DNA from: Gemmata massiliana
GTDB taxonomy: Bacteria; Planctomycetota; Planctomycetia; Gemmatales; Gemmataceae
Assembly (NCBI GenBank): GCA_000531095.1
Contig: HG799462.1
Span: 1,630,896 to 1,670,519 of the forward strand
Reading direction: 5' to 3'
Length of the DNA stretch: 39,624 bases
Shown piece after piece: positions 1-37,127 of this stretch. The translations under genes and the position numbers were made by a program. Each line of letters opens with the position of its first letter. Within the stretch, counting starts at the first letter, position 1. Below the pieces are notes generated by a model. That model searched no databases, was not told the DNA's origin, and saw only the letters and a list, made by a program, of their open reading frames with translations.

Positions 1-29
1 CAACTGCACGCAGGAACTCCAAGAATCGC

Positions 30-67
30 ATAACTTCGTATAGCATACATTATACGAAGTTATACGA
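30..67. other. loxP site, probably a mate-pair library linker
   Basis: Positions 30-63 are a perfect 34-bp loxP: two 13-bp arms (ATAACTTCGTATA and its complement) around the 8-bp spacer GCATACAT. The match to the Cre-lox circularisation linker used in 454 paired-end libraries, as I recall it, continues through ACGA to 67. The site is much more AT-rich than its surroundings and cuts directly into a coding sequence that has no 5' end. I read it as unremoved linker joining two unrelated genomic pieces, so bases 1-29 may not be contiguous with the rest. A native phage P1-type site is the alternative. Confidence 0.9.
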
Positions 68-172
68 GGCGCCGGTCCGCCGCTACGCCCCCGGCTCGTG
101 CCGCTCGTGCTCATCGGACTCGGGTTGCTGATCCTTTACGAAGCGGGCAGCTTCGGCCTGCTGCGGCCTTGA
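65..172 (+). pseudogene. CadD-like cadmium transporter, 3' fragment
   Basis: An open frame runs out of the linker and stops with TGA at 170-172, giving about 35 residues. It contains a hydrophobic helix reading LVPLVLIGLGLLILYEAGSF. As I recall the CadD cadmium-resistance transporter family, members end with a very similar LVP-VLIGLG-IL-E segment, so this looks like the last transmembrane helix of such a protein. The rest is missing because the linker interrupts it, so the truncation is probably an assembly artefact rather than a real deletion. The neighbouring heavy-metal efflux operon supports a metal-resistance role. The identification rests on one short segment. Confidence 0.5.
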
Positions 173-9883: not shown

Positions 9884-11179
9884 TCACAGCCTCCGGACCT
9901 GCGACTGCTGTCGCTCGATCTCGGCCGCGAGGTCGTGGGCGGGAAGCTGCGAGGGGGCCTCCTCGATCTGCCCATGAACGTGTGCGTTCCTCATGGGTTC
10001 CCGCGCAGCCCCGGTGTGCCTTGCAATGACCCGCCGCTCGACTTCCAGCAAGGCACGCGCATCCGCCTGGTTCCACCCCGCCTTGGAGGCGGTGAGCGTC
10101 ACGAGAAGGTGGCGAAATGAGAGGAACCGGGCTTCGACTCCCTCGACGAGCCCGACTTCTCGCGCGGCCTCCGCGGCACCGTACCCCCCGAAGAGTCGTG
10201 AGCCCCTGACATGCGGGAAGACGTACACGCCGATTCCGGAGAGGTGGTCGCAAACGCAAGTCCCACGGCCCCATTCGACGAACCTTACCGCCTGCGTTCT
10301 ATCCGGGTCGTACGACATCTCGCGGAGTGACTTGGAGACGCGGTGCGCATTCTCTTCCGTCGGCCTCACCCAGGCCTCGACCCTTACCGGCTCGCGTCCG
10401 GGAACGTACTGCTTCACGGCGTGACCCCCGACGAGGAGGTACTCGACGCCGTTGGCCGCGAACTCCTGGACGAGCCAGGACAGGACCGTGTTGTGGCACT
10501 CATCCCTCGTGAGCAGGAAGTCTCCGACTTTTCCCCCCGGCTTATAGGTCAGGGGGCGGATGAGCGGGACCGCGGGCGGCGCGCTCTTGATGACCTCCGC
10601 CATCGTACTCTCCGGTAAAGGGGCTTGTGACGGGCCGTAGCCCTTTGGGGGCGGCCTCTCTGCCCGAAGGGCAACCTTCGGAGTTCCCACGTCGAGGAGC
10701 GCCGCGTGGTCCTTCAGGTCCCGTTTCTGTTCGTCTTCGGTTTTCCGATCGCGGTGCGACTCCCACTTACTTCGGAGGAGGTGGTCGTAGGAGAGGTAGT
10801 TTGTGAGCACCCCTTGGAACGCTCTCGCGGCGCGCTTCTCCCAGGCACCAGCGAAGCCGCCGATCGTCGCTTCGCCAGCCGCCCAGGTCATTAGGTCGAC
10901 CCCGACGCCGGACCGTTCCTCGGTCAGGTGGACGCAGTTCCCGCGCTCTCTCAGGTCAAGTGCGATCACCCACCAGGTTCGCCCTGGAAGGGCGCGGCAG
11001 ACCGCTTGGGCCGCGAGTTCCGCGTTCTCGATGGTGGGTCTTATCCAGACGTCGATGTCACCGGGAATCCGGTCGGGGACGTAGTGGCGGACCGCGTAGC
11101 CGCCGACGACAATGTACTCAACCGCGTGAGCGTTCAGCTCCCGGACGAGATCCCGAAACAGCGAGTCCTTCGGTTCCAA
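9884..11179 (-). CDS. tandem nucleotidyltransferase, second domain degenerate
   Basis: A 431-aa protein made of two copies of a nucleotidyltransferase fold. The first (about residues 10-165) has VEYIVVGGYAVRHY, then GDIDVW with D41 and D43, and GVGVDLM with D95: the complete GG/DxD/D signature of the MNT/AbiEii-like superfamily. The second copy (about 230-390) keeps VEYLLVGGHAVKQY, but the acidic positions become R266, E268 and tyrosine (GIGVYVF), so it should not be catalytic. A proline-rich linker (about 175-215) joins them. The start is TTG at 11179 behind GAGGG, inside the end of the upstream RHH-like gene with a 62-bp overlap. Such pairing resembles toxin-antitoxin loci with nucleotidyltransferase toxins; that role is inference. 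Confidence 0.7.
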   Translation of the reverse strand: MEPKDSLFRDLVRELNAHAVEYIVVGGYAVRHYVPDRIPGDIDVWIRPTIENAELAAQAVCRALPGRTWWVIALDLRERGNCVHLTEERSGVGVDLMTWAAGEATIGGFAGAWEKRAARAFQGVLTNYLSYDHLLRSKWESHRDRKTEDEQKRDLKDHAALLDVGTPKVALRAERPPPKGYGPSQAPLPESTMAEVIKSAPPAVPLIRPLTYKPGGKVGDFLLTRDECHNTVLSWLVQEFAANGVEYLLVGGHAVKQYVPGREPVRVEAWVRPTEENAHRVSKSLREMSYDPDRTQAVRFVEWGRGTCVCDHLSGIGVYVFPHVRGSRLFGGYGAAEAAREVGLVEGVEARFLSFRHLLVTLTASKAGWNQADARALLEVERRVIARHTGAAREPMRNAHVHGQIEEAPSQLPAHDLAAEIERQQSQVRRL

Positions 11180-34535: not shown

Positions 34536-34754
34536 ATGACCGACGAACGATTCCTGACCGTAAAGGAGGCAGCCGAGCGAGCGCGGGTTTCGCGCTCGCT
34601 CGTCTACACCTGGTGCGAGGAGCGGCGCCTGCCCCACGTCCGGGCGGGCGCCGCCGGGAAGAGAGGGCGGATCCTCATCCGCCCCGAAGATCTCGATGCC
34701 CTCCTCAAGGAGTGCGAGGTTGAGCGCCATCCGCTTCTCGGTGCGGGCGGGTAG
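34536..34754 (+). CDS. excisionase-like HTH protein (Xis type)
   Basis: A 72-aa protein from ATG 34536; a longer in-frame start at 34392 yields a non-protein-like leader. It is almost entirely one winged helix: FLTVKEAAERARVSRSLVYT, WCEERRLPHVRAG, and ILIRPEDLDALLKECE, the standard helix-turn-helix-17 excisionase layout. It is convergent with the tyrosine integrase gene and overlaps its 3' end by 50 bp, a typical xis-int neighbourhood. The likely role is to direct the integrase towards excision. The antisense overlap could let each transcript reduce the other. Confidence 0.75.
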   Translation: MTDERFLTVKEAAERARVSRSLVYTWCEERRLPHVRAGAAGKRGRILIRPEDLDALLKECEVERHPLLGAGG

Positions 34755-35793
34755 CCTTCGCCGCTGCATCCTTCAGGTGGTCCACGCGATGAGACAGCCG
34801 TGCGTAGAACTTGTGGAGCGTCGCCGTGTTCGTGTGCCCGAGGAGGGTCGCGACGGTCGCATCCTGCACCCCGCTCTCGAGGGCGTCGGTCGCGAACGAG
34901 CTCCGGTAGGTGTAAGCGACGACCCCTTTCAACTCCGGGAACCGTTCACGGAGCCGCATGAACCGGATGCGGACTGCGTTCCGGGTCCAAGGCTTCCCGC
35001 GCGAGTTGAGAAACAAAGGATCCGCCGGGTTGTGGGCAACGAGCTCGCGGGTGAGTTCGACGGCCTCCGGCGACAAGTAGACGAGCCGGGGCTTCCCGGT
35101 CTTCTTCGCCGTCTTGTGCTTCTTGAGGATCCAGAGCCCGCTCTCGAAATCGACGTCGGCCGCGGTGACCCGTGCGACCTCACCCGGCCGGCAGCCGGTC
35201 AGCGTCATCGCGTTCACGAACCGGCGGAAGGCCAGATCCCGGATCGACCCGAGGATGGTGTCCCGTTCCTCGGCCGTGAGCGTCCGGTCGCGGGTCAGCG
35301 CCTTCGGCTTCCGCACGTGGGCGATCGGGTTCTTCGGGATGTGCTCTTCCTCGACGGCCCAGTTGAACGCCCGCTTGACCGCCCCGAGCGCCTTGTTCGC
35401 GGACGTCGGGTTGTAGCCCTTGACCTCGAGCCACTTCTTGACGTGCTTCTTCCGGAGCCGGGTGACGCGGAGCTTCCCCCACATCTCCTTGAACGGAGTC
35501 AGGAGATCCCGGTACCACCGGGCCGTCGGCGGCTCGTGCTCGCGACGGCTGTGTTCGATGAAGCCGTCAAGAACGTGGGAGACAGTGACCCAGGACGGGG
35601 CGAGCGGGTCGGCCGCTGCCTTCTCTTGGGAGTACTCGCGCGCGGCGAGCTCCTTTAGGAGTTGGTCCTCGGCCTGCTTCCGGCCGTCGCGGGTATTGGG
35701 GGCTTTGACGAGGCGGAGTTGATCGTAACGGCCGTTCTCGCGGAGCGAGGCGTACCACCAACCGGTCTGCTTGCGGAACCACACCTTCTGCAT
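34705..35793 (-). CDS. int: tyrosine-type site-specific integrase
   Basis: A 362-aa recombinase from ATG 35793 (GAGGG upstream; the frame continues upstream without a better start). It has an N-terminal SAM-like core-binding domain (about 60-160, WVTVSHVLDGFIEHSRR ... LRKKHVKKWLEVKG) and a C-terminal catalytic domain: first Arg in TGCRPGEVARVT, Lys region KKHKTAKKTGKPR, box II YTYRSSFAT, GHTN, and the nucleophile tyrosine in LHKFYARL. The first histidine of HxxR is Tyr here, a variation found in some recombinases. It lies just downstream of the 3' end of tRNA-Pro, so it should integrate the element there. Everything left of 35926, at least to the first module, is presumably the element. Confidence 0.9.
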   Translation of the reverse strand: MQKVWFRKQTGWWYASLRENGRYDQLRLVKAPNTRDGRKQAEDQLLKELAAREYSQEKAAADPLAPSWVTVSHVLDGFIEHSRREHEPPTARWYRDLLTPFKEMWGKLRVTRLRKKHVKKWLEVKGYNPTSANKALGAVKRAFNWAVEEEHIPKNPIAHVRKPKALTRDRTLTAEERDTILGSIRDLAFRRFVNAMTLTGCRPGEVARVTAADVDFESGLWILKKHKTAKKTGKPRLVYLSPEAVELTRELVAHNPADPLFLNSRGKPWTRNAVRIRFMRLRERFPELKGVVAYTYRSSFATDALESGVQDATVATLLGHTNTATLHKFYARLSHRVDHLKDAAAKATRPHREADGAQPRTP

Positions 35794-35846
35794 GACTAGA
35801 CCCTCTTGGGATGGACCACGGCGGTCCCGCAAGGGTCTGTCGAGAG

Positions 35847-35880
35847 CCCCCTCCTGGTTGCAGCCGGGAGGGGGTTTCTT
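35847..35880 (+). terminator. rho-independent-like terminator near attachment site
   Basis: CCCCCTCCTGG / CCGGGAGGGGG (11 bp with one G-T wobble), loop TTGCAG, followed by TTTCTT on the plus strand. It would stop plus-strand transcription from the excisionase side before the tRNA. It lies upstream of the integrase start on the minus strand, so it might also form in the integrase leader. Confidence 0.55.
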
Positions 35881-35887
35881 CACTTCC

Positions 35888-35907
35888 TGTGCACTTATCT
35901 TGTGCAC
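35888..35907. repeat. TGTGCAC direct repeats, possible integrase arm sites
   Basis: TGTGCAC occurs at 35888-35894 and 35901-35907, 13 bp apart, between the tRNA end and the integrase gene. Short phased repeats in this position often bind the integrase N-terminal domain or Xis; this is inference from position. Confidence 0.35.
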
Positions 35908-36000: not shown

Positions 36001-36194
36001 TCAACTCTCAATTGTGAAGTAATCCTATCCGGGACACAGCGAGAGTCAATACCAACCAATTTGTGCAGGGCCGTGGGGGCCGTTCGGGTGCAGGACCGGG
36101 TCATTGAAAGTTTCACCTTGGTGAGTTTGGGGAAGTTGCTATTTGGGTTGCTTTGCCGCACGCAATTGGCATGCGGGGTGCTCGGACAATTGCG

Positions 36195-37127
36195 ATGAGT
36201 AACCCGTGTCTGCTGGCCGCCTTGGCCACGGTTCCCGATCCCCGATCGCGCCAGGGGCGCTCGTTCTCGTTCCCTCCGATCTTCGCCTTGCTCGTCGTCG
36301 GCGTTCTCTTGGGGCGCCGCTTGCCCGGGGCGATCGCCCAACTCGCCGACGAGTATGGTGGCGACTTCGCCTTACTTCTCGGATGCCCACGACGACGATT
36401 GCCCACGACTTCCACGCTCTCCAAGCTCCTCCCACGGATTGACGTTCTGGAGTTGGAGGCGGTTCTGCGTAACTGGATCGCGACCCGCCTGCCGCCCGGC
36501 GACACGCTCGTCGTCAACGCGGACGGCACGTGCGTTCGCGGCAGCGCCCACCGATCCGCACAACGGCCCGGCGTTCACCTGTTGCCCGCCTTTGCTCCGC
36601 GCGTCCAAGCCGTTCTGGCCCAACTCCGCGTCGATACCAAGACCAACGAACACAAGGCCGCGCTGGAGTTGCTCAACATCCTGCCCTCGCGTCGGGGCGG
36701 GTGCATCGTCACCGGCGATGCGATGTTCACGCAAACCGAGGTGTGCCAAGCGATTCGAGATCGCAACGACGACTACGCGCTGGTGGTCAAGGGTAACCAG
36801 CCCGCCCTGGCCGTGGATACCGACGCGGGACTCGCATTCGCCGCTCAAGCGGCGACGTTTCCCCCCCCGAAGGGCGCGTGCCGCCGAAGGAATCGACGCC
36901 CGGCCCACGGTTCGCGCGAACAACCGAGAAGGGACACGGTCGAGTTGAGCACCGGACGTTGGAGAGCACGGCGATCCTGACGGCGCATCAGAAATGGCCC
37001 GGGCGGAAGCAAGGCTTCCGCGTGCGCCGGTGGGGCATTCGCAAGGGCAAGGCGTACGAGGACGTGGTCCACGGGATCACCAGTCTGCCCCCGGAGAAGG
37101 CCGATGCGAAACGGCTGCGGGAGTTAG
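36195..37127 (+). pseudogene. ISAs1-like transposase, frameshifted and truncated
   Basis: It starts at ATG 36195 (MSNPCLLAALATVPDPRSRQ). It has ISAs1-family features: LVVNADGTCVRG (first acidic residue), RVDTKTNEHKAALELL, GCIVTGDAMFTQ (second), DYALVVKGNQPAL, and after a frame change TTEKGHGRVEHRTLE and VHGITSLPPEKADAKRLREL. The frame is lost at the eight-C run 36861-36868; one more C would join the two parts (PPPEGRVPPKES). It is cut at 37127 by the IS701 copy, losing the C-terminal catalytic part. A possible left end is CAGGGCCGTG at 36066 (low confidence). As part of a nest of insertion sequences it is inactive. Confidence 0.75.

Follow-up and report, generated by a model that had tools for sequence, protein, structure and literature searches.

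A loxP site in a Gemmata massiliana genome assembly that matches a Cre-lox mate-pair linker

The site and its closest described counterparts

Two described sequences come closest to the site analyzed here, the loxP of phage P1 (X03453.1) and the 42-base linker of Cre-lox mate-pair libraries such as those of the Roche 454 Titanium type. According to the available passages of the papers cited, the Roche kit is based on Cre-LoxP and its linker marks the junction (PMC3253782), and 454 Titanium paired ends carry 42-bp loxP linkers (PMC6992861). An excerpt of PMC5199103 prints the linker 5'-CGTAATAACTTCGTATAGCATACATTATACGAAGTTATACGA-3', together with its reverse complement, among its mate-pair adapter sequences, and the same 42 letters are likewise given as a mate-pair adapter in an excerpt of PMC5710592; between them, these excerpts describe its use in Illumina projects on guppy and ginseng. 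Among the titles, abstract openings and passages on residual linkers that we consulted, none was about loxP residue in bacterial assemblies. For Gemmata massiliana, the relevant passages of PMC4672568 describe a draft assembled with Newbler 2.8 from a 454 Titanium 3-kb paired-end library and a shotgun XL+ library, comprising 417 contigs in 22 scaffolds, 9,249,437 bases and 64.07% G+C. The genome analyzed here (G000) has 22 contigs and 9,269,192 bases, about 20 kb off the published draft length, with 63.9% G+C in the 27 stretches fetched from it, and we infer that it is likely this published draft.

The window, by which we mean the whole 39,624-nucleotide stretch analyzed from contig HG799462.1, starts with the first base after a 271-N scaffold run. 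Its left end is organized as follows, with L113 denoting a fetched stretch that covers the sequence to the left of the gap:

1..29, no strand assigned: sliver of 29 bases that separates the linker from the 271-N scaffold gap preceding the window; it would be either missing cadD codons or a mate tag whose source locus is not in the assembly
30..63, + strand: perfect loxP, core of the library linker
64..67, + strand: ACGA, right-hand tail of the linker as printed in PMC5199103 and PMC5710592, a tail present at 24 of 28 sites
68..172, + strand: C-terminal piece, in two frames, of a CadD-like cadmium transporter gene (PF03596), with the N-terminal part at L113:9203-9683

The loxP at 30-63 is perfect, consisting of two 13-bp arms around the spacer GCATACAT, and it is the sole match in the window at up to three mismatches; none of 100 shuffles gave one. 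Its 34-bp core is identical to phage P1 loxP, but the letters that adjoin it on the right are those of the linker, such that window 30-67, ending in the linker's right-hand ACGA, shares an unbroken run of 38 letters with the 42-letter linker of Cre-lox mate-pair libraries. A reading made from the sequence alone had identified a perfect loxP plus four bases matching the 454 paired-end linker, and the comparison with the printed letters bears this out. To the left of loxP the window reads TCGC, where the published linker reads CGTA, and the right-hand tail alone is present. Because this left tail is missing, the window site is an incomplete copy of the linker.

Sibling sites in the genome and in a close relative

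A whole-genome search of G000 for both loxP arms at the right spacing gave 28 places, and no such palindrome was found in any of 58 relatives, making G000 the only match among the 59 genomes searched. When the sites are oriented by their spacer, the right tail ACGA is present at 24 of the 28 and the left tail CGTA at 13, and nine sites are identical to the linker over its full 42 letters. CGTA is missing at the other 15, among them the window site, which also belongs to the nine of these 15 in which GC adjoins loxP. In other assemblies, TGC precedes loxP at four of seven Sediminibacterium sites and at all three Actinobacillus sites. The G000 sites are also concentrated near assembly gaps, with 10 of 28 within 100 bases of an N run and 11 of 28 within 250, whereas positions drawn at random from these 27 stretches come that close in 0.7% and 1.8% of cases, respectively. 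Multiple dispersed copies in a single assembly, and none in its relatives, are as expected of a Cre-lox mate-pair linker, and the copies often adjoin gaps. Reading-frame continuity across the linker, a measure too noisy to be decisive, agreed at 4 of the 28 sites (L115, L124, L129 and L131). Two sites, L114 (9196-9453 and 10049) and L120 (left flank, 10252-10834), have in common pieces of what is apparently one repeated element, suggesting that contig breaks caused by repeats are places where linker residue accumulates.

We also searched for second copies of the sequence flanking each site, using about 24 bases on each side of all 28 sites (56 flanks, two of which were too short) and allowing up to two errors within the window plus the 27 fetched 20-kb stretches. 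Seven sites have one flank with a second copy in their own stretch, at offsets of 2038 (L109), -226 (L121), 4011 (L123), -2454 (L127), -1818 (L128), 6104 (L130) and -2448 bases (L132). All seven copies are on the same strand, and in all seven the order is consistent, left flanks recurring downstream and right flanks upstream. The copies extend for 40-145 bases away from the linker with no more than three mismatches, and in the direction of the linker they stop 0-7 bases beyond the point four bases from loxP. This pattern is the prediction for a read of the form end-linker-start from a circularized fragment; two of the seven mate distances, 226 and 6104 bases, sit poorly with 3-kb fragments. 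Within the fetched stretches, the remaining 21 sites have no flank copy in their own stretch, and copies located in other stretches (L115 right, L120 left, L126 right and L130 right), which look repeat-like, were not counted.

The relative G008, which belongs to the same genus and is represented by one complete contig with zero loxP, could be compared with G000 at six of the 28 sites (L112, L119, L135, L109, L128 and L114), places guessed from synteny (60 stretches of 20 kb) being usable for L109, L114 and L128 only. All six sites have flanks that run collinearly with G008 over the extent visible, the right flank of L114 matching over only 395 bases at 84%. At four of the six, ordinary sequence of near-equal length occupies the linker's place in G008. 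Specifically, there are 41 bases of linker material vs 40 in G008 in a putative metal-dependent nuclease gene (L112), 41 vs 38 in a putative inositol-phosphate synthase gene (L119), 35 vs 34 in a putative glutamate synthase gene (L135), and 133 bases of tag plus linker vs 131 at L109. Same-length replacement fails at L128, where a repetitive gene carries two linkers (206 bases in G000 vs 116 in G008), and at L114, where 1005 bases in G000, including 475 N and the repeated element, correspond to 29 in G008. At three sites the sequence replaced by loxP is open in the orthologues. The sibling sites differ in this respect from phage P1 loxP, as loxP here replaces ordinary sequence at four of the six comparable places. 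We reject the idea that the linker was, as a general rule, simply inserted into intact DNA, because G008 has real sequence of near-equal length in its place at the same four sites. Drawing on these six comparisons, with flanks collinear over the extent visible and near-equal lengths at four, we conclude that the linker for the most part takes the place of real sequence and does not join distant loci.

The split cadD gene and the 29 bases before the linker

The CadD-like C-terminus that had been noticed to the right of the linker is present and ends at window 172, in two frames, though its PF03596 match is weak (14.7 bits, below the cut-off of 26.2). To the left of the gap, the N-terminal and middle portions of a CadD-like transporter are encoded on the same strand at L113:9203-9683, spread over two frames by an apparent frameshift, and they score 37.4 and 31.2 bits against the same profile, both over its cut-off. 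The N-terminal, middle and C-terminal pieces match known CadD proteins (PF03596) in order, such as the one encoded on a Hymenobacter radiodurans plasmid (EPD59_RS00095), but here the gene is broken by the gap, the linker and apparent frameshifts. The frame changes affect both halves (L113:9450-9530 and window 68-100) and by inspection lie near homopolymers, as expected if they were 454 errors. Since the N-terminal half sits beyond the gap in the same orientation, cadD is probably whole in the organism, in agreement with the proposal of the sequence-only reading that the cadmium transporter is intact. Its further proposal, a false join to a distant locus, is not supported: because the other half of the same gene lies beyond the gap there is no large false join, the sequences that border the gap and linker on either side being one gene in the right order, and the flanks of sibling sites are collinear over the extent visible in all six comparisons. 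The N-terminal stretch of cadD was found in G000 alone among the 59 genomes and in none of the 58 relatives, and a PF03596 profile search of 199 genomes of the phylum gave four matches including G000, two of them over the cut-off, again including G000. The gene forms part of a heavy-metal region that extends from L113:6827 to window 6575 and also contains a putative P-type ATPase and a putative CzcCBA-type efflux set. This region may have been acquired, because the cadD N-terminal stretch is absent from the 58 relatives.

The origin of bases 1-29 themselves can be read in two ways, and we lean towards the view that they are part of cadD and supply its missing codons. Placed in frame between the cadD pieces, they contribute ten residues to a match that covers PF03596 positions 100-187 with no length change and scores 59.8 bits, a score for which the frame and length of the sliver were picked after the sequence was seen. 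Control peptides in which the sliver residues were replaced scored lower, with 51.1 bits for ten X, 53.5 for nine X, 52.5 and 50.9 for the two other frames and 54.8 for the reversed residues, and 30 peptides translated from 29-mers drawn at random from this genome gave 48.1-56.5 bits, none reaching 59.8. The other reading, in which bases 1-29 would be, besides the linker, the other tag of one mate pair and would come from a distant locus, is a serious contender to which we give somewhat less than even weight. It draws on the seven sibling sites that carry a short tag with its other copy 0.2-6.1 kb off, and on third-position G+C, as only 4 of the 10 sliver codons end in G or C, unlike cadD, in which none of 143 ten-codon windows is as low; across four neighboring genes, 2.4% of 2549 such windows are. 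Against it stand the profile scores just given, with their exact profile length, and the presence of the remaining half of cadD beyond the gap. Moreover, if bases 1-29 came from another locus of a nearly complete assembly, a second copy would be expected, yet none was found in the assembly with a 22-mer at two mismatches or with two exact 15-mers, nor was there another copy of the whole 29-mer, at up to three errors, in the fetched stretches. Because there is no second copy, the mate-pair order seen at sibling sites cannot be demonstrated at the window site.

Origin of the linker letters and loxP in other assemblies

We conclude that the window loxP is almost certainly a left-over circularization linker of a Cre-lox mate-pair library, of the 454 Titanium paired-end type. 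An unremoved mate-pair linker is also what the sequence-only reading had proposed, and it is consistent with the printed linker letters, the 28 sites in this genome against none in 58 relatives, and the association with gaps. In constructing such a library, loxP adaptors are added to both ends of a sheared fragment and Cre closes the circle, which upon re-shearing gives reads of the form end-linker-start. A read in which the linker went unrecognized was then probably assembled whole, so that linker letters became part of the consensus where a contig ends within cadD. Coverage at the site was probably low, and in weakly covered stretches generally, linker-bearing reads may have fixed the consensus while the register was held by other reads. 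As a laboratory residue, the window loxP says nothing on the biology of the organism; it is an ordinary artifact of no biological novelty.

Other explanations differ in the library invoked or treat the sites as genuine. The linker letters could be left over from another type of Cre-lox library, such as an Illumina mate-pair library prepared with the Roche adaptor, and not from 454 reads, in keeping with the use of the same 42 letters for guppy and ginseng in the excerpts of PMC5199103 and PMC5710592. We consider this unlikely, given that 454 libraries are the only ones mentioned in the passages concerned of the candidate source paper (PMC4672568) and that the frame changes in both halves of cadD, near homopolymers by inspection, are such as 454 data give. 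Far less probable is a native dispersed family of loxP sites used by a resident Cre-like recombinase. The 28 near-identical palindromes would suit such a family, as would the 37 tyrosine-recombinase family matches in G000, three of which lie near sites. The first, divided between two frames, is some 1.1 kb from the site at C5:318866, the second some 5 kb from that at C1:619174, and the third is in the window at 34705-35907 (PF00589 at 34792-35277), about 34.7 kb from the window loxP. However, none of these three matches P1 Cre (query from X03453.1) at E 1 or better. The P1 Cre search of G000 returned three other tyrosine recombinases, 27-30% identical, plus one match at E 0.5, and the three lie 72.8 and 50.8 kb from the nearest loxP or, in the third case, on a loxP-free contig. 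An adjacent Cre-like recombinase, which the sequence-only reading had named as evidence that would count against an artifact, was looked for, and we found no P1-Cre-like gene within 50 kb of any of the 28 sites. In addition, the letters neighboring loxP are those of the linker, and we reject a native lox family with a resident Cre on the basis of the loxP-free relatives (0 of 58 with a site), the distances of the Cre matches, and the replacement by loxP, at three sites, of sequence that is open in orthologues. We would give next to no credence to a last explanation, that the 28 sites are genuine chromosomal loxP produced by an unknown process that swaps about 34 host bases with hardly any change in length. 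The window recombinase is adjoined by a putative transposase reading frame (window 36153-36980).

The left-over linker constitutes a data-quality warning, in that such residue can overwrite real sequence besides interrupting it, so that the genes affected seem broken or cut short. The 28 such places in this reference genome, and the same letters in other assemblies and a phage record, can lead gene calls and searches for lox-like sites astray.

Scanning other public assemblies for exact loxP gave at least 130 sites in at least 102 stretches from at least 19 organisms. Among the 130 matches listed, 102 carry both linker tails, 119 at least one and 11 neither. The artifact is thus not rare in public assemblies, because 119 of the 130 listed sites carry one linker tail or more. 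Two of the 11 listed sites with neither tail are in Escherichia, for which phage P1 is a natural source of loxP. In the record of Lactococcus phage Q33 (JX564242.1, 17548-17581; L231:1501-1534), a loxP with ACGA on its right and AGTA on its left lies where the portal gene is annotated to begin. It is apparently residue of the same linker, and the portal gene start may consequently be wrong. Contig 116 of Aeromicrobium sp. PE09-221 (L081) and plasmid unnamed3 of Alicyclobacillus fastidiosus (L085) each contain a loxP with no linker tails but with identical 12-base flanks on both sides, possibly reflecting a common vector or contaminant in these unrelated organisms. Sites without the 454 tails were also observed in Sedimentitalea (L054) and in two Salinispora (L070 and L090). 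The right flank of the Sedimentitalea site starts like what we take to be an Illumina adapter, which suggests a different Cre-lox mate-pair kit.
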